Origin: Flavobacteriales bacterium
GTDB lineage: Bacteria > Bacteroidota > Bacteroidia > Flavobacteriales_F > PHOS-HE28
NCBI GenBank assembly: GCA_013360395.1
Contig: JABWBQ010000007.1
Span: 1-64,000 of the forward strand
DNA: 64,000 nt
Direction: 5' to 3'
This document shows, piece after piece, positions 6,570 through 16,272 of the stretch. The notes beneath the pieces are model-generated. The model searched no databases, was not told the origin of the DNA, and saw only the letters and a list, made by a program, of their open reading frames with translations. Each line of letters opens with the position of its first letter. The first letter of the stretch is position 1. The translations under genes were made by a program, and so were the position numbers.

Positions 6570-8339
6570 ATGAATATCCATCGTTTGGTGGTATTGGTAG
6601 GCTTGCTGCTGGCGGGTGAATTGGGGGCACAGGTGGATTGCCTGGGTGTCAATGGTGGCTCGGCCTTACCGGGTACGCCCTGTGACGATCTCAACTTCTA
6701 TTCCATCGATGACACTTGGGACGCCTCCTGCAATTGTGTCGGCATTCTATATGACTGCAATTGGGATCAATTCGGCACCGGATGGCCGGGCACCATTTGC
6801 GAAGATGGGAACCCGTTCACCGTCAACGACGTTTTCCACTACCCCTGTAATTGTTCCGGAACATGTCCGGGATGCGATTGTTATGGTACGCCCGGCGGGC
6901 CTTATCTACCGGGCACTCCCTGCGATGACCTGCACCCTGCCACGGTGTTCGACACCTTCCAAAGCAATTGCGATTGTATGGGACAGCAGAACTTCATCTA
7001 CGGACAGGTCTTCCTGGACCTGAACATGGATGGTGTGATGGACCTGGGCGAACCCACCATCGCCAACCGGACGGTGCAGATCACCCCGGGGAACTTCCAA
7101 GGTACCAGCGGCCTCTCCGGGGCCTACCTCATCGTCGCGGGGCTTGGCACTTACGACATCAATGCGGCACCAGGCAGTTTCGACATGCAGTCCGGCCCTT
7201 TGCCACCGGTCACCTTTGGCATCACCGGGCAGAACAACTGGGGCAACAACATCCCGTTGACAGCCTCGTCCATGCAGGGGGATCTGTCGGTCGCCATCTC
7301 TGCGGTGCGCACCCGCCCTGGTTTCGACAATGAGGTCACCGTCACCTGCAAGAACGAGGGCACGATCCCGATAGGAGGCACGGTGTCCATCACCTTCGAT
7401 CCGTTGCAGTTCTACGTTGCTTCAGCCCCACCTGGCACCTTGGTGGGGAACACACTGACCTGGAGCGTACCGGTGCTGGGTCTGGGTGCGACCACGCCTT
7501 TCGAGGTGGTGTTGAACACGCCAGCGACCACACCGTTGCTTACGCCTGTCCAACACAGTGCGACGGTGGTCGCCGCACCTCCGGATGCCGTGCCCGCCAA
7601 TGACACCTTCATCTTCAACGATGTCGTCGTCGGCCCTTGGGACCCGAACGACAAGCTGGTTTCGCATCCGGTGCTTTCCCCGCAGCAGGTGGCTGCAGGC
7701 ACCCCGCTCACCTACACCATTCGCTTCCAGAACACCGGCACCTGGCTGGCGGAGGATGTGCGCATCAGCGATACCCTGTCCGCCCAGTTGGACCCCTCCA
7801 CGATGGAGTTCATCGGCAGCAGCCATCCCGTGCAATGGTCCATCAGCAACAGCGTATTGGGCATTTTGTACGACCAGATCATGCTGCCTGACAGCGGTAC
7901 CAATGAACCGGAAAGCCACGGCTTCTTCCAGTTCCGGATCACACCCCATGGCACGTTGCAGTTGGGCGACAGCATCTCCAACTCGGCCGCCATCTACTTC
8001 GATTTCAACGAGCCCATCATCACGGAACCAGCGCTCACGGTGGTGGATGCAGGTGCGCGTATGCCCGTGTTGGGTTCGGAGATGCATTCACTCAGGGTCT
8101 GGCCTAACCCTGCTACGGAAAAGCTGTTCCTGCAAATGTCGGCAATGGCTGACATGAGGTTATGGATAGTTACGACCTCTGGGCAGATGGTAGTCAGCGA
8201 GTTCGCGCCACTATCACACGGGGGCGATCAATGGGCATTCGACATAGCCCCCCTTGCAGCGGGAGCCTACATCCTCAAAGTGGCATCTGGAAGTTACCTC
8301 TATCACACACGATTCGTGAAACTCCCAGTAACTCAATAG
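6570..8339 (+). CDS. Secreted Cys-rich/DUF11-like protein with T9SS sorting domain
   Basis: This 589-residue exported protein starts with a signal peptide ending near LGAQ. Residues ~25-140 contain three Cys-rich repeats of about 45 residues with the pattern PGTPCDD or PGTICED followed by CNC or CDC and Gly. A DLNMDGVMDLGEP segment follows, which looks like the start of an SdrD B-like or calcium-binding beta-sandwich domain. Residues ~345-490 hold the DPNDK...GTPLTYTIRFQNTG segment common in Bacteroidota surface proteins. The C-terminus, from LRVWPNPATEKLFL, is a T9SS type A sorting domain. A G11 tract sits upstream. The next gene starts 5 bases after the stop. Confidence 0.8.
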   Translation: MNIHRLVVLVGLLLAGELGAQVDCLGVNGGSALPGTPCDDLNFYSIDDTWDASCNCVGILYDCNWDQFGTGWPGTICEDGNPFTVNDVFHYPCNCSGTCPGCDCYGTPGGPYLPGTPCDDLHPATVFDTFQSNCDCMGQQNFIYGQVFLDLNMDGVMDLGEPTIANRTVQITPGNFQGTSGLSGAYLIVAGLGTYDINAAPGSFDMQSGPLPPVTFGITGQNNWGNNIPLTASSMQGDLSVAISAVRTRPGFDNEVTVTCKNEGTIPIGGTVSITFDPLQFYVASAPPGTLVGNTLTWSVPVLGLGATTPFEVVLNTPATTPLLTPVQHSATVVAAPPDAVPANDTFIFNDVVVGPWDPNDKLVSHPVLSPQQVAAGTPLTYTIRFQNTGTWLAEDVRISDTLSAQLDPSTMEFIGSSHPVQWSISNSVLGILYDQIMLPDSGTNEPESHGFFQFRITPHGTLQLGDSISNSAAIYFDFNEPIITEPALTVVDAGARMPVLGSEMHSLRVWPNPATEKLFLQMSAMADMRLWIVTTSGQMVVSEFAPLSHGGDQWAFDIAPLAAGAYILKVASGSYLYHTRFVKLPVTQ

Positions 8340-8343
8340 AACC

Positions 8344-9174
8344 ATGAGAACCACTCTTGCCTGCTGTGCTGCCTTATTGGTCTCCGGGCAAGCAACCGCT
8401 CAGGTCGCGGAATGCGCGGCCGAATGGGGCTTGGATTCCATCACGACCTTGATGGTCGAGGAAATGATACAAGCCCGACTGCCAGAGGTGCAAGCCCAAC
8501 GAGCTGCAGGCGGCGGTGGTCCGATCTTTCGCATCCCAGTGGTCTTCCATATCATCCATATGGGAGCGGGTACGCCAAGCAACATTCCAGACCTTCAGGT
8601 GCTTGACCAACTCGATCATCTCAACGATGAATTCCGCGACAATCTTGATGGGTTCGGGGATATACCACAGATCGAGTTCTGCCTGGCACAGAACACCTGG
8701 GATGGGCAGCCTTGGTCAGCATACAACGCGGTAACCCCGGGCATTACGAGATGGGAGGACCCCATTGCATCAGCGGGGAATACCATGACCGTCGCGGAGA
8801 TGTTCGAACTGGTGAATGTCGTCCAATTCCCACCGGATAACTACTTCAACGTCTGGATCGTCAACGAGGTGGGGGGGGACGGGGTTGGTGGGGTGGGCGG
8901 TTACGCGACATTCCCGACCGCTCAAGCGCCACTGGATGGAGTAGTGATCGAATCCGCGTGGATCACTGCACCGCCTTTCATTCAGGGCGATCTACTGATC
9001 CACGAAACTGGGCACTACTTGTCGTTGTTCCATGTATTCGGTAATTGTCTCGGGGCCAACGATCAATGTCTTGATACTCCCCCGTCTCCAGCACCAAATC
9101 TCACCGCCACGGTCGGTGCACCCTGCCAGGACAACGATGGGGACTGTGGTGTTCCTGAAGCCCTCGACAACTAA
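8344..9174 (+). pseudogene. M43 (pappalysin-like) metalloprotease domain, cut by in-frame TAA
   Basis: These 276 codons encode a signal peptide (cleavage near TAQ) and an M43-type zinc protease domain with HETGHYLSLFH at residues 220-230, supplying the three zinc histidines. In this family the domain continues into a Met-turn of the type N-Y-M-D-Y. Here the frame reads LDN, then TAA (9172-9174), then MDYLPEPCQTVFT in the same frame. A TAC or TAT at this position would restore the Tyr and join the two parts into one protein of 2133 residues (8344-14745). The break may be a true mutation or a base-calling error. A G8 tract at 8871-8878 lies within this part. Confidence 0.75.
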
Positions 9175-12100
9175 ATGGATTATCTTCCGGAGCCTTGTCA
9201 AACCGTCTTCACCGTGTGTCAGGTGGACAGAATGCACACAGCGATCATGGATTGGCGAGATATCCTGGTCGCCCCGTGGAATCACTACTATACGGGCATC
9301 GCCGGACCGAACGGCTGCGAGCCGATCGTTGCTGATGCCACGTTCACCAGTAACGGACCGCAGTTTTGCACGGGTGATGTGGGGCAGTTCGATGGGTACG
9401 TGCCGGTGGACAGTTGGACCTTTACATTCATTGATCCTTTAGGCGGGTCCACGGGCCCGAGCGGTGGACCCGGGGTGCCAAGTGCATCCACGACCTTCGC
9501 GATCGCCGGACAATGGCAAGTAACGCTCTCCGTAGTGTTAGCAGGGAACCCGGCCGTCTTCACATCGATCGTTTGGGTGACGGATTGTTCGCCCATCACC
9601 TCGGAATGTGCGCAATGGTATTTCGGGAACTACTGTTCCCTCGATTTTTCAATGGGGGCACCCGTCGCCGTTGGGGGATCGGCGATGCACTCGGAGGATG
9701 TTCCTGCCACCGCCTGCGACCCGGCCACCGGTGTGATGCAGTTCTATGCATCGAACCTCCAGGCATTCAATTCTGGTGATGTCCCACTCACACCTCAATT
9801 CGATGGTGGCCTCCCAAGCACGTACTCGAGCCAAGGGGCCGTCTTCGTTCCAAATCCAGGCAACCCTGATCGTTATTACCTGTTCTACACCGCGGACCAG
9901 ACACAGGCCTTAAGGGAACTGCACTATACGGAAGTTGACGTCACGCTGATGACTGGTGGGTTCAGTGGGGATATTGCTGTAGCGGACGTATCCGTTGATC
10001 CTGCTGAGCCTCCAACGGCCGAGTTCCTATCAGCTGTCCCCCATTGCAACGGAACCGACTATTGGGTGGTCACGCTTGGAGTCCAAGGCGTAGCTGCCGG
10101 ACAGATCCTCAGCTACCAAGTCACGACCACGGGTGTCTTGACACCAGCAGTAACCAGCCCCAACCCGGTGTTCACCACGTCCACTTTGGGCTTTGGGAGG
10201 TCCGGACAGATCGAGTTCAATTCGACAGGAGATATGGCGGCCATATCCTTTGCGGGCAATAGCACATGCCATTTGTTCTCCTTCGATAGAGCGACGGGGA
10301 CGTTCGATTTTCTTGTGACTTTGGCTGGGAACACCTGCACCGGTCTTGGGGTGGCGTTCAGTTCGTCCGGAGACTTTCTGTATACCGCATGGACTTCAGG
10401 CGCATTTGCTGGCCGGGGCATCTTCCAACATGATCTGCGCCAATTGGACCTGTGTGCGCCCCAGCCGCCTCCGAACAACTTCACTCCGTTCCCAGCGCCC
10501 ATATTCTTCGCGAGCCTCCAGCGTGGACCGGATGACAAGATCTACATGAGCGAGTACCTACGGGACGATGTTTCTGTTATCCACGACCCGGAGACTTGGA
10601 ATGCCAGCCCCAACGATTTTGGGTTCCAGTATCAAGGTGTGCCGCTCACCATTCCCGGTGGTGTCAATGAGATATGTCTTGTTGGCCTGCCGAACATGAT
10701 CGATGCCGACCCACCCTTGCCAACGGCTAATGATTTCACTTGGGATACGGGACCTGACCCGGACTGTAGCTTGGCTTGCCATGATGCGCAGTTCTTCTTG
10801 GAGGGTTGCGGGGATATCATAGAGTGGGACGTTGACTGTGACGGAACGATCGATGGCACGGGTATCAACTTCTCTTATTCTTTCCCCGGTTCTGGCAGTT
10901 TTAATGTGTGTATGTTGATCGATGGTGTACAAGTTGCTCAGCATTCGGTGGCCGTTCCGGCCTGCTCGGGACCGTTCTCCATCACCAAGACCATCACCCC
11001 CTCCAACGGCGGCACATACGCCGGTGCGCCGGTGCTATACACCATCACGGTATGCAATACCAGCGGCACGGACCAGACCGGTGTCAATGTGACCGACCTG
11101 CTTCCGACCGACTTCGTACCCCACAGCAACCCGTTGCCACAGAACAGCATCACGCTGCTGGCAAACGAATGCCAAACCTTCGAGATCACTGGCTCATTCA
11201 CTACCCTAGGCACACACACCAACACAGCCACCCTCACACAGGGAGGCACCAGCATCTCATCAAGCGTTGACATCGATGTGCTAGATGGCTGTCCTATGAT
11301 CGTCTATGGCAGTGGCGGGTGTGACCCAGGTGATGTTGTGAATATGTGCCTAGGAATGCATACACAGCTAACGAACGTCAGCTCGGTGACCTACTACATT
11401 GTTTACCCCGACTTCTTGCTTCCTCCGACAGCCGGATCCATCATGGGTTCAATAAGTAGCCCGTTCGCCATCTCCAGCGCCACCATTGGTTCTCCTATTT
11501 CAATGGGAGGATGGCCACCAGGATACTCTGCGGTGCAAGTGACCGTGAACTTCACCACCCTAATAAGCCCATCACCACCGTACGAGTTCTTCTGCATTGA
11601 CTTCGCGATAGACCCGAATGGCCCCGGTGCTCCTCCGGGCCAGAACGCAGTATGGACCTGGGCAAGCACCACACCCGGCGTGGGTGGATGGAACCAAGTA
11701 ACGGTGACCGCGAACAACGCAGACATCGACTTGTGGACCCAAGCATACCACATCATTTTCAATGGTTGCCCTAACCTGATAACCCCCGATGCGTCCTTCA
11801 CCGCTGACGTATCCGATTGCGGCGGCAAGGTTACCGTCCACGGTAACAACAACGACCCCAACGCCATCCACATCTGGACCTGGGGGGATAACCGCACAAC
11901 TCCTATCAACGGAGCCCAGAATTACACCTACGACTACTTCGCCTGGATCTACGATAACCAAGGCTTCCCGGTCAACATCCCTCCGGCAGCACCTGGAACC
12001 TACACCATAACCCACACCGTGATAGTTGATGGCGTGGCCGAGACAGCAACCCAAACCGTTGATGTAGGAGCCGATGTGATCATTGCAGACCTAACCTACT

Positions 12101-14745
12101 CTAGCAGTATCAGTGACATTGTTGGTGGGTCGGTGGATATCGAAGGACAGTTCTTCATCGATAATGACTTCTTCATAGGCAACGCACAAGTATATCTGCA
12201 ACCCGGCGCAGAGATCATCGTGCAGAACGGCTGGACCCTCGACATCGAGAACAGTTCCTTCACGGCCTGCAACGGCGTGATGTGGAAGTCGATCACGGCG
12301 GAGAACGGCGCCACCGTGCGGATCCGTGGCTCTTACATGGACGATGCGGAAAGCACGGTCGCCGCGTTGGACGGCTCGGTGATCTGGGTGGATGAGACCC
12401 AGTTCCACAACAACCGTGTGGGCATCGGCATACCGGATGTTGGCGGCACCTACAACAACGTGGCCTGCTGGGTGAGCAACAGCATCTTCTACAGCGCGGG
12501 CCCCATGCCACAGCCGTATCAAGGGCAGGCCTCCGCGGTCGGCAGCCAAGGCTTCGCAGCGGTGGATGTCCACAATACCTCGCTGGACTTCACGGGCGGC
12601 AACAACCTGATCCACAGCCTGAGCAACGGCATTGTGGGCCACCGCAGCGACCTGACTGTGGCCGAGTGTCAGATGCTGAACATCCAGCCGGATGCGGCCT
12701 ACGCGTACACCGGCAACGGCTCGGGCATCTATGCGAACGGTCTGCTGGGGTGGAACACGCTGAAGCAACAAGGCTATGGCATGAATAGCAGCCTGCCCAG
12801 CTTCAACGGTTGCCGCTGGGGCATCTACACCGAATACATGAACGTGCGCAGCACGGACAACCGCATGCTGGACATGGGCACCGCCTACCGCGTGGACCGC
12901 AGTGGCTACCGGGAAGTGGATATCCTGGAGAACCAGGTACACACCCGCTACAACGGCATCGAATTGCGGGCCAACGACGGTGCGGCGCACATCCTGGTCG
13001 AAGGCAACGACATCACCTTCGGCAATGACCCGGCATGTACAGCATGCAAGGGCTGGACAGCCATCCGAGTGACCGAGGGGAACTACGTGGCCCCCGACTC
13101 TCGGATCCAGAACAACACCATCCACTTCCTGCCGCAATACGCCTCTCGCTTCGGCATCGGCCTTTTCGCGGCTGACCGCTGGATCGTGGCGGAGAACGAC
13201 CTGAGCATGGTGAACAACGCATTCAACAGGACCGGCATCTGGCTGAACGGCTGCCGGGCCACGGAGGTGAGCTGCAATACGGTGAACAGCAGTGACAATG
13301 CCTACCCGGTGGATGCACAGGCCGCCATCCGCAACAACATGGGCAGTGAGCCGCTGATCAGTTGCAATGAGATGGACCGGACGGCCAACGGCATCCTTTT
13401 CAACGGCGTGGCCTACAATACCGATGTGCGCGGCAACCAGTTCCACAACCACCGCTGGCCGCTGCATTTGGATGCCACGGCGATCATCGATGTGCAGGCG
13501 CTGAAAGGGAATCTTTGGGACCCGAACGCCGCTACGCCGGTTTGGGGTGCGTGGTATGAGGTGAGTAGTTGGCAGGCAGGGAACTACCCTTTCGTTTACA
13601 ACCCAGCCACTATAGGAAATGGATCTACCGTGCCTCCCTCGTGGTCCCCGTCGAATTGGTTCTTCAATTCCGCTGGCACCAACTATGACTGCGCCGATCA
13701 CCACGGTGCACACTATTGCAGCCAATTCGGGGGTGAACGCTGCAAAGACTGCATCCGCGAACTGGACGAGAAGATCGCCAGTGACAGCTTAGAGAACGAT
13801 CCCTACACCGACGAGACCAAGTGGATGCTCGCGGCCGATCTGTACAAGAAGCTCGACGATGCACCTTCCCTTCTGGACAGCCTGCCCGAACTGGATGCGT
13901 TCTACACCGCGCTACAAGGCAGCACCACGGCGGCTTTCAAAGCGATCGAAGACGACCAGCTCGCGCTGTACAACCTGGACAGCAGCGTGGTGGCCCAACT
14001 GCAAGCCAACCAGGTGCAGATCGATGCGTTGATGAGCCTTGTGAAGGACGGCATGGAGCAATTGGGCGACAGCACGCTCACCCCGGCACAACGGCAAGGC
14101 CTCCTTGTTGGCCTGAGCGGTTATCGGCAGAATATCAACAACCTGTCCGCCTGGAACGCCTCCGCCCTGCAACTGGCCAGCACCTCGAAAGTGCTGACCG
14201 CCGAAGGGGTGAAGACGGCGAACGCCAACATCGCCACTTCCGAATTGATCGAAACCAACGAGAAGGCGGTGAACGAAGTGTACCTGGCCACCGTCGGCAA
14301 GAATGTGGATAGTTTCACGACCACCCAAACCGCTGACCTGTTCGCGATCGCGAACCAATGCCCCATGCTGGGTGGCAATGCCGTGTTCAAGGCGAGATCG
14401 TTGTATTGGCTCATTGACGACAGCTACGACTTCGATGACCAGGCGCTTTGTCTCCAACATGGTATTATCGTCAAGAGCCTGGCGGCGCAACCGATCAATG
14501 CCGTCGCTGTGATACCGAACCCCGCCGTTGACGAGGCCACACTGGTGCTCGACCACGAGTTGGACGAGCCTGGAAGCTTCGTCGTGTACGATGCCGTGGG
14601 AGCTGAGGTGATGCGCCAGGTCGTGCCGATAGACATGCCCCGATTGGCGTTCAGCACAGCTTCACTTGCTCCAGCGCTATACCACTACCAGGTGCGTGGG
14701 CCATCAGGCGTCATTGGTGTTGGGAAGCTCACTATCGTTCGCTGA
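9175..14745 (+). CDS. Remainder of giant secreted protein: Met-turn, DUF11, beta-helix, T9SS sorting domain
   Basis: This is an 1856-residue frame that continues the M43 domain without a shift (first residues MDYLPEPCQTVFT...RMHTAI). It has no signal peptide of its own, so by itself it would not be secreted. Later parts are a propeller-like stretch (residues ~150-500), a PKD-like segment, a DUF11 repeat at ~600-690 (TKTITPSNGGTYAGAPVLYT), a right-handed beta-helix region (~960-1440) rich in INxN-type rungs, a charged, helical region with DSLENDPYTDETKWMLAADL, and a T9SS type A sorting domain from VIPNPAVDEATLVL to the end. It is probably a surface protein in the joined form. Confidence 0.75.
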   Translation: MDYLPEPCQTVFTVCQVDRMHTAIMDWRDILVAPWNHYYTGIAGPNGCEPIVADATFTSNGPQFCTGDVGQFDGYVPVDSWTFTFIDPLGGSTGPSGGPGVPSASTTFAIAGQWQVTLSVVLAGNPAVFTSIVWVTDCSPITSECAQWYFGNYCSLDFSMGAPVAVGGSAMHSEDVPATACDPATGVMQFYASNLQAFNSGDVPLTPQFDGGLPSTYSSQGAVFVPNPGNPDRYYLFYTADQTQALRELHYTEVDVTLMTGGFSGDIAVADVSVDPAEPPTAEFLSAVPHCNGTDYWVVTLGVQGVAAGQILSYQVTTTGVLTPAVTSPNPVFTTSTLGFGRSGQIEFNSTGDMAAISFAGNSTCHLFSFDRATGTFDFLVTLAGNTCTGLGVAFSSSGDFLYTAWTSGAFAGRGIFQHDLRQLDLCAPQPPPNNFTPFPAPIFFASLQRGPDDKIYMSEYLRDDVSVIHDPETWNASPNDFGFQYQGVPLTIPGGVNEICLVGLPNMIDADPPLPTANDFTWDTGPDPDCSLACHDAQFFLEGCGDIIEWDVDCDGTIDGTGINFSYSFPGSGSFNVCMLIDGVQVAQHSVAVPACSGPFSITKTITPSNGGTYAGAPVLYTITVCNTSGTDQTGVNVTDLLPTDFVPHSNPLPQNSITLLANECQTFEITGSFTTLGTHTNTATLTQGGTSISSSVDIDVLDGCPMIVYGSGGCDPGDVVNMCLGMHTQLTNVSSVTYYIVYPDFLLPPTAGSIMGSISSPFAISSATIGSPISMGGWPPGYSAVQVTVNFTTLISPSPPYEFFCIDFAIDPNGPGAPPGQNAVWTWASTTPGVGGWNQVTVTANNADIDLWTQAYHIIFNGCPNLITPDASFTADVSDCGGKVTVHGNNNDPNAIHIWTWGDNRTTPINGAQNYTYDYFAWIYDNQGFPVNIPPAAPGTYTITHTVIVDGVAETATQTVDVGADVIIADLTYSSSISDIVGGSVDIEGQFFIDNDFFIGNAQVYLQPGAEIIVQNGWTLDIENSSFTACNGVMWKSITAENGATVRIRGSYMDDAESTVAALDGSVIWVDETQFHNNRVGIGIPDVGGTYNNVACWVSNSIFYSAGPMPQPYQGQASAVGSQGFAAVDVHNTSLDFTGGNNLIHSLSNGIVGHRSDLTVAECQMLNIQPDAAYAYTGNGSGIYANGLLGWNTLKQQGYGMNSSLPSFNGCRWGIYTEYMNVRSTDNRMLDMGTAYRVDRSGYREVDILENQVHTRYNGIELRANDGAAHILVEGNDITFGNDPACTACKGWTAIRVTEGNYVAPDSRIQNNTIHFLPQYASRFGIGLFAADRWIVAENDLSMVNNAFNRTGIWLNGCRATEVSCNTVNSSDNAYPVDAQAAIRNNMGSEPLISCNEMDRTANGILFNGVAYNTDVRGNQFHNHRWPLHLDATAIIDVQALKGNLWDPNAATPVWGAWYEVSSWQAGNYPFVYNPATIGNGSTVPPSWSPSNWFFNSAGTNYDCADHHGAHYCSQFGGERCKDCIRELDEKIASDSLENDPYTDETKWMLAADLYKKLDDAPSLLDSLPELDAFYTALQGSTTAAFKAIEDDQLALYNLDSSVVAQLQANQVQIDALMSLVKDGMEQLGDSTLTPAQRQGLLVGLSGYRQNINNLSAWNASALQLASTSKVLTAEGVKTANANIATSELIETNEKAVNEVYLATVGKNVDSFTTTQTADLFAIANQCPMLGGNAVFKARSLYWLIDDSYDFDDQALCLQHGIIVKSLAAQPINAVAVIPNPAVDEATLVLDHELDEPGSFVVYDAVGAEVMRQVVPIDMPRLAFSTASLAPALYHYQVRGPSGVIGVGKLTIVR

Positions 14746-14760
14746 GGTCGGTAGTTGGAC

Positions 14761-16272
14761 ATGCTACGTCTGGCACTACGGGTTGGTTTATGCTTCAACA
14801 TGATACAAGGGTGTATTCCCTTGTATCACGCTACGGCACAACAGGGATTAGATAAGCTCTGGCTAGGCGGTTATCAATCATGGGCTGGTGCGCCGTATGG
14901 TGGTGTTGATTTGGATTTCACTGGAGGGCAGTTGGTAGTTGGCAGCGTGACGCGGGACATTGGCTTTGCTCGCACGAACACTAACCTTTCCGATGGTAGT
15001 GGGAGCGTATTGATAAGCACGAACGGCACATTCGTAGCAAATGCACTCGGTGATACGTTACTCAGTGGCAGTGGTCTGAATCCTGGTGACTATACTGATC
15101 TGTACCCGGAGTTTATCTTTATTTCCCAAGGCGTACTACTTCTGCCCAAACCCGAAGACTCTAACATTTATTATCTGCTCCACATGACCATCGACAACAG
15201 TGTGGACATCAATGCAGAGCACCTGCTACTCACGTCCGTTGACATGAGCCTGGATGGGGGCTTGGGTGCTGTGGTAAGCAAGAACGTTTCGATCCTCGAC
15301 GATGAGATCAGCCTTGGGCACTTGACAGCGGTACGGCATGCGAACGGCCGCGATTGGTGGGCCTTCTGCCGTAAGTTGAACACCAATACCTTCTATCGCT
15401 ACTTGATCAGCCCAGCGGGCATCAACTTGGATGGCACCCAGTCCATTGGTGATCTCAGTATCTGGGCTACGGGACAAGTCTGCTTCTCCCCGGATGGCAG
15501 CAAGTTCGCCTATTACTGGCGGGATATTGGTCTGGAGGTGTTCCAGTTCGATCGTTGCACAGGGCTGTTCTCATCACCAGTATCGGTCACGTACACGGAC
15601 TTGGAGTTTGGAAATGGTGCCGCCTTTTCACCGAACGGTCGGTACCTCTACATAACAGATGTGGATAATGTCTACCAGTACGATACAGAGGCACCCGACC
15701 TTGCCGCATCCGAAGTCCTCATCGCAGAATGGGATAGTACGTACTCGCCATTCCCTCCTCTGGCAACGTTATTCGATATCGCCCAACTTGCGCCTGATGG
15801 CAAGATCTACATCGGCACGGGCAATAGCACGGACAAGCTGCATGTGATACACGCGCCGGATTCAGCGGGGTTGGCCTGCAACATCGAACAGCATGGCATC
15901 TCCTTGCCACGCTATTTTAGCAACTCCCTCCCCAACCACCCCAACTACCACCTGGGGCCAGTGGATGGCAGTGTATGCGATAGTTTGGGGATCAACAATG
16001 GTATGTCTGCCCTGGCTGCAGAAGGGCTGCGCATTCAGGCCTACCCGAACCCGAGCATGGGTACGTTCACACTAAGCTACCCTTCCATTGGGCAGATCGG
16101 CGTCATGGAAGTGCGTGACCTTGCGGGAAAGCTCATCCTACACGAGCGTTTACCACCCTGGAGCCAGGTGCATCAGGTGCAACTCGTCGGGGCATCGCCT
16201 GGGCTGTACAATTGCAGGATCAGCTGGGGTCCGCGATCGGTATCCACCCGCATAATGGTCGTTGAGCCATGA
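14761..16272 (+). CDS. Secreted beta-propeller protein with T9SS sorting domain
   Basis: This 503-residue exported protein has an N-terminal hydrophobic stretch ending near ATAQQ. The body shows repeated blade-like units with CFSPDGSKFAYYW, AFSPNGRYLYITD and QLAPDGKIYIGTG, which are typical of seven-blade propellers in Bacteroidota surface proteins and match similar phrases in the preceding giant protein. The C-terminus, from IQAYPNPSMGTFTLSYP, is a T9SS type A sorting domain. ATG 14761 is preferred to the TTG two codons earlier. It follows the giant gene by 15 bases and overlaps the next gene by four, so the three are probably co-transcribed. Confidence 0.8.
   Translation: MLRLALRVGLCFNMIQGCIPLYHATAQQGLDKLWLGGYQSWAGAPYGGVDLDFTGGQLVVGSVTRDIGFARTNTNLSDGSGSVLISTNGTFVANALGDTLLSGSGLNPGDYTDLYPEFIFISQGVLLLPKPEDSNIYYLLHMTIDNSVDINAEHLLLTSVDMSLDGGLGAVVSKNVSILDDEISLGHLTAVRHANGRDWWAFCRKLNTNTFYRYLISPAGINLDGTQSIGDLSIWATGQVCFSPDGSKFAYYWRDIGLEVFQFDRCTGLFSSPVSVTYTDLEFGNGAAFSPNGRYLYITDVDNVYQYDTEAPDLAASEVLIAEWDSTYSPFPPLATLFDIAQLAPDGKIYIGTGNSTDKLHVIHAPDSAGLACNIEQHGISLPRYFSNSLPNHPNYHLGPVDGSVCDSLGINNGMSALAAEGLRIQAYPNPSMGTFTLSYPSIGQIGVMEVRDLAGKLILHERLPPWSQVHQVQLVGASPGLYNCRISWGPRSVSTRIMVVEP

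Follow-up and report, generated by a model that had tools for sequence, protein, structure and literature searches.

Two long open reading frames on the forward strand of the 64,000-nucleotide stretch analysed here (the window, contig C69 of an uncultured Bacteroidota-type genome of 3.68 Mb in 139 contigs, 99.85% complete) lie in the same phase, 8344-9171 (276 aa) and 9175-14745 (1856 aa), with the TAA at 9172-9174 alone between them. The arrangement, pointed out in an earlier note on this DNA, was confirmed in the given sequence and raises the question of whether the locus holds two genes, one gene broken by a nonsense codon, or one gene whose stop codon is an error or is bypassed. The first frame begins with a signal peptide-like start (MRTTLACCAALLVSGQATAQ), the residues around the stop read ...EALDN-stop-MDYLPEPCQTVF... 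and an ATG at 9175 abuts the TAA (TAAATG). The segment 8344-14745 is a single ancestral frame, interrupted by the TAA and otherwise undamaged (Table 1).

Table 1 Features of the interrupted gene and of the gene that follows it in the window.
Feature	Position	Strand	Evidence
Upstream part, with signal peptide, prosegment and three zinc-ligand His in a largely complete M43 (pappalysin-like) catalytic domain	8344..9171	+	PF05572; phmmer
In-frame TAA in the Tyr/Phe column of the Met-turn	9172..9174	+	Sequence; alignment column; M43 domain listing
End of the catalytic domain (M43), carrying the Met-turn Met, the tyrosine-switch Tyr and a disulfide Cys	9175..9246	+	PF05572 continues to profile position 151; columns +1, +3, +8
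PD40-type segment resembling a propeller (downstream frame, aa 131-491)	9565..10647	+	Matches in L144-L148 and PD40 proteins
Conserved stalk and C-terminus, aa 597-1856; sorting tail probable	10963..14742	+	Identity to other genomes; DUF11; alignment
Next gene, encoding a PD40 propeller and a T9SS type A sorting domain	14755..16272	+	TIGR04183; synteny

The stop codon lies inside the catalytic domain

The upstream half alone matched PF05572 with 35.9 bits over profile positions 13-105 of 152, and phmmer related it to ulilysin (E 1e-18) and mirolysin (E 1e-10). When the TAA was read through, the PF05572 match extended over 8830-9246 and positions 13-151, with 55 bits and one TAA inside; because it runs continuously across the TAA, the stop is placed within a protein domain. 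The zinc motif HETGHYLSLFH (about 9001-9033) follows the pattern HExxHxxG/N/DxxH with a Ser at the Gly/Asn place, as is also seen in one relative (L032). In 50 aligned M43 segments the column of the stop is occupied by Tyr (27) or Phe (17), and the surrounding columns are kept, with Asn before it in 40, Met in 44, a second Tyr in 49 and a downstream Cys in 44; all four conserved residues are present in the window DNA, each on its own side of the TAA.

The Met-turn of mirolysin comprises Asn282-Asp285, with Met284, and is followed by the tyrosine-switch residue Tyr286 (PMC6949598; also PMC11674741). From the alignment and this numbering, the TAA stands in place of the aromatic residue that immediately precedes the Met-turn Met and parts the zinc-binding His residues from the Met-turn. 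The earlier note had put the stop at the Met-turn Tyr, which holds in that the Tyr/Phe column is hit, with the refinement that the functional Met and the switch Tyr lie after the TAA. A Met-turn with Tyr two residues past the Met is thus encoded in the DNA and cut off by the TAA from the polypeptide that carries the zinc motif. The window frame has in common with the pappalysin M43 enzymes ulilysin (2CKI), mirolysin (6R7V) and cytophagalysin the catalytic-domain sequence, the zinc motif, the downstream Met-turn, the tyrosine switch and the Cys, but differs from them in being cut one residue before the Met-turn Met and in a much longer stalk. The gene is of M43 origin; what it now encodes falls short of a whole M43 enzyme.

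Relatives with intact and broken frames

About 220 M43 domains were counted in 45 congeneric genomes (sum of a per-genome table), and among the roughly 150 of them that were listed only the window's domain contains an in-frame stop. In five relatives (L144-L148) a single open frame of 1114-1386 aa runs from the M43 domain across the site of the stop into the propeller-like segment. Because these relatives carry the protease and the next domain in one frame, and no other listed M43 domain is interrupted, the TAA is not a normal gene boundary; two separate functional genes, the arrangement that the earlier note held would refute a broken gene, were not found among the listed M43 domains. With the M43 profile spanning the TAA and the relatives continuous, its main claim, that a nonsense codon cuts one gene at the Met-turn, is borne out. 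No same-species copies were found in GTDB 220 contigs or IMG/VR.

Broken copies of the stalk protein occur elsewhere in the genus. Older broken paralogs lie on contigs C25 and C48 of the same genome, their frames shifted by indels that are unlike homopolymer slips, and the copies in genomes G028 and G012 contain stops. In the sister genome G032 a TGG encoding Trp in the near-identical, open copy of G034 has become TAG, among about three differences in 10 kb; this TAG is independent of the TAA in the window. Since broken copies are common in the stalk-protein family, a real nonsense allele would not be surprising, and in this genus giant secreted proteins that join exchangeable heads to a common stalk break often.

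Two further observations concern these copies. The paralogous regions L083 (C25, 5167-13863) and L084 (C48, 2093-7347) are tandem arrays of partial stalk C-termini alternating with PD40 genes, several of them frameshifted by indels. The regions L110/L111 (about 5.5-20.8 kb of G034:C54) and L112/L113 (about 6.1-21.3 kb of G032:C13) share about 15 kb with only about six differences, one of them the nonsense codon in the G032 stalk protein. The two genomes are classed as different species and the likeness switches abruptly to divergent DNA at one end, a near-identity that may reflect recent transfer or a binning artefact.

Age of the lesion

The earlier note had described the downstream part as intact over 5.5 kb, and indeed neither a frameshift nor a further stop was found there. 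On the branch leading to the window, the stalk (aa 597-1856) has accumulated 103 synonymous codon changes, 81 nonsynonymous ones and no nonsense change; a rough neutral model with transitions weighted twofold predicts about 285 nonsynonymous and about 12 nonsense changes without constraint. Substitution counts in the last 300 aa of the conserved C-terminus are typical of constraint. Because no more lesions are seen, where drift over the whole branch should have brought about 12 nonsense changes, the break is probably recent, one of the three causes that the earlier note had offered; on these counts the lesion appears to be young relative to the divergence from G041, or else an error.

The nonsynonymous to synonymous ratio of the stalk is higher on the window branch (81:103) than on that of G041 (30:108; p 3e-5), and relaxed selection in the downstream part as proof of an old decay was considered and rejected. 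The window-specific amino-acid changes are concentrated in two stretches of the downstream frame, aa 954-1050 and 1248-1345; since they are clustered and far below the neutral expectation, the excess is attributed to local divergence or recombination. Their clustering within 10963-14742 suggests mosaic ancestry, and copying into the stalk from paralogs of the same genome was not evident.

The locus is probably a recent nonsense pseudogene: one TAA at the Met-turn would have inactivated a secreted M43 gene. A rather unlikely second reading is that the TAA arose in assembly or consensus calling, or belongs to a minority strain, and that the population carries an intact gene. In a single assembly such an error would look identical. 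The assembly of 139 contigs is probably of metagenome origin, one base separates TAA from a Tyr codon, the remainder of the gene is pristine, and between G032 and G034, too, a nonsense change is found among about three differences in 10 kb. A single stop with zero frameshifts in 6.4 kb, nearby sequence without signs of poor quality and paralog lesions that do not resemble homopolymer slips argue against it.

Predicted products of the interrupted gene

As a recent nonsense pseudogene, the locus would descend from a gene of about 2,130 codons for a secreted M43 (pappalysin-like) metalloprotease, probably exported by the T9SS. Translation from 8344 would now yield an exported fragment of 276 residues that keeps the zinc ligands and, lacking the Met-turn Met, the tyrosine switch, one disulfide Cys and the export tail, is expected to be inactive and unstable. 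Some restart is possible because an ATG directly follows the TAA, and a product started at 9175 would have no signal peptide and would presumably stay in the cytoplasm. Like other recent bacterial pseudogenes with a single nonsense codon, the locus shows one lesion, an otherwise undamaged frame and intact relatives, and no difference from them was seen; the finding is ordinary biology. It matters mainly to annotation, in which 8344-14745 should be entered as a single disrupted M43 gene rather than as the genes of a short protease and an unrelated giant protein.

Two products, a protease fragment that is exported and a protein of 1856 residues with its own start, made by termination-reinitiation at TAAATG and either purposeful or tolerated, would accord with the ATG abutting the stop and with the long, undamaged downstream frame. 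Such an arrangement is nonetheless improbable, given that the break strips the Met-turn and the tyrosine switch from the catalytic domain, that the downstream part lacks a signal peptide, that no convincing ribosome-binding site was seen by inspection before the ATG at 9175, and that the same split occurs in no relative among the listed M43 domains.

Stop-codon use and readthrough

Stop-codon recoding by a suppressor tRNA or code reassignment has in common with this locus a long open frame past the stop, but the machinery that it requires was not found in this genome. RF1 and RF2, both of which read UAA, are intact, with their PAT and SPF motifs, respectively. Ordinary anticodons were found in 42 of the 43 tRNA gene matches; the odd one (L082, C37:19594-19692, minus strand; 99 nt, Rfam 45 bits) is without TTA, and no UAA-reading tRNA was seen among them. 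This odd match has an enlarged anticodon arm and was not recognised by ARAGORN. TAA is the rarest stop, ending 36 of 342 long frames, and a genuine terminator that closes nuoF before nuoG and prs before rplY. RNA structure after the TAA is ordinary (z -1.4), with no extra signal. A codon-usage scan of 807 kb for other interrupted genes, which is weak evidence since it is insensitive and missed the stop at 9172 itself, returned three TAA candidates, which as interrupted genes were rejected as two ordinary boundaries (nuoF/nuoG and prs/rplY) and one antisense shadow frame. A literature search on readthrough of bacterial pseudogenes found nothing on point.

Release factors, tRNA set and TAA usage led us to reject a code change or suppressor, and no evidence of readthrough or new stop decoding was found. 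Bypass of the stop by a suppressor tRNA, a code change or a local signal, the readthrough option of the earlier note, is favoured solely by the integrity of the downstream frame and is very improbable. Least probable is a tolerated TAA acting as a regulated or stochastic off-switch; in that view nonsense alleles, such as the TAA here and the TAG of G032, would segregate in these giant proteins of the surface or the secretome, and some product would still be made by readthrough or restart at a low level.

Stalk, heads and neighbouring genes

The stalk of the interrupted gene, which contains a DUF11 match (Pfam), is about 50-74% identical to copies in other genomes (71-74% to those of G041 and G003) and is common to differently headed giant proteins of the genus. 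The stalk and the following PD40 gene are conserved together in relatives and the heads vary, the one here consisting of the M43 domain and the propeller-like segment, which itself resembles the separate protein at 14755. The earlier note had assigned a sorting domain to the downstream frame; its C-terminus (VIPNPAVDEATLVL...GKLTIVR) is sorting-tail-like by eye, but matched neither Pfam nor NCBIfam models, whereas the neighbours at 6570 and 14755 do have a sorting domain.

Three other heads, L086 (1731-4130), L088 (6590-9007, minus strand) and L089 (1662-3899), contain the HExxH-like motifs HEATHMLGFH, HEAMHMLGVE and HEALHGMGII, respectively, with Leu-Met-His further on. None matched a Pfam peptidase family, nor did L088, the one compared with the PDB, match a structure there, and these heads possibly represent an undescribed metallopeptidase-like domain.
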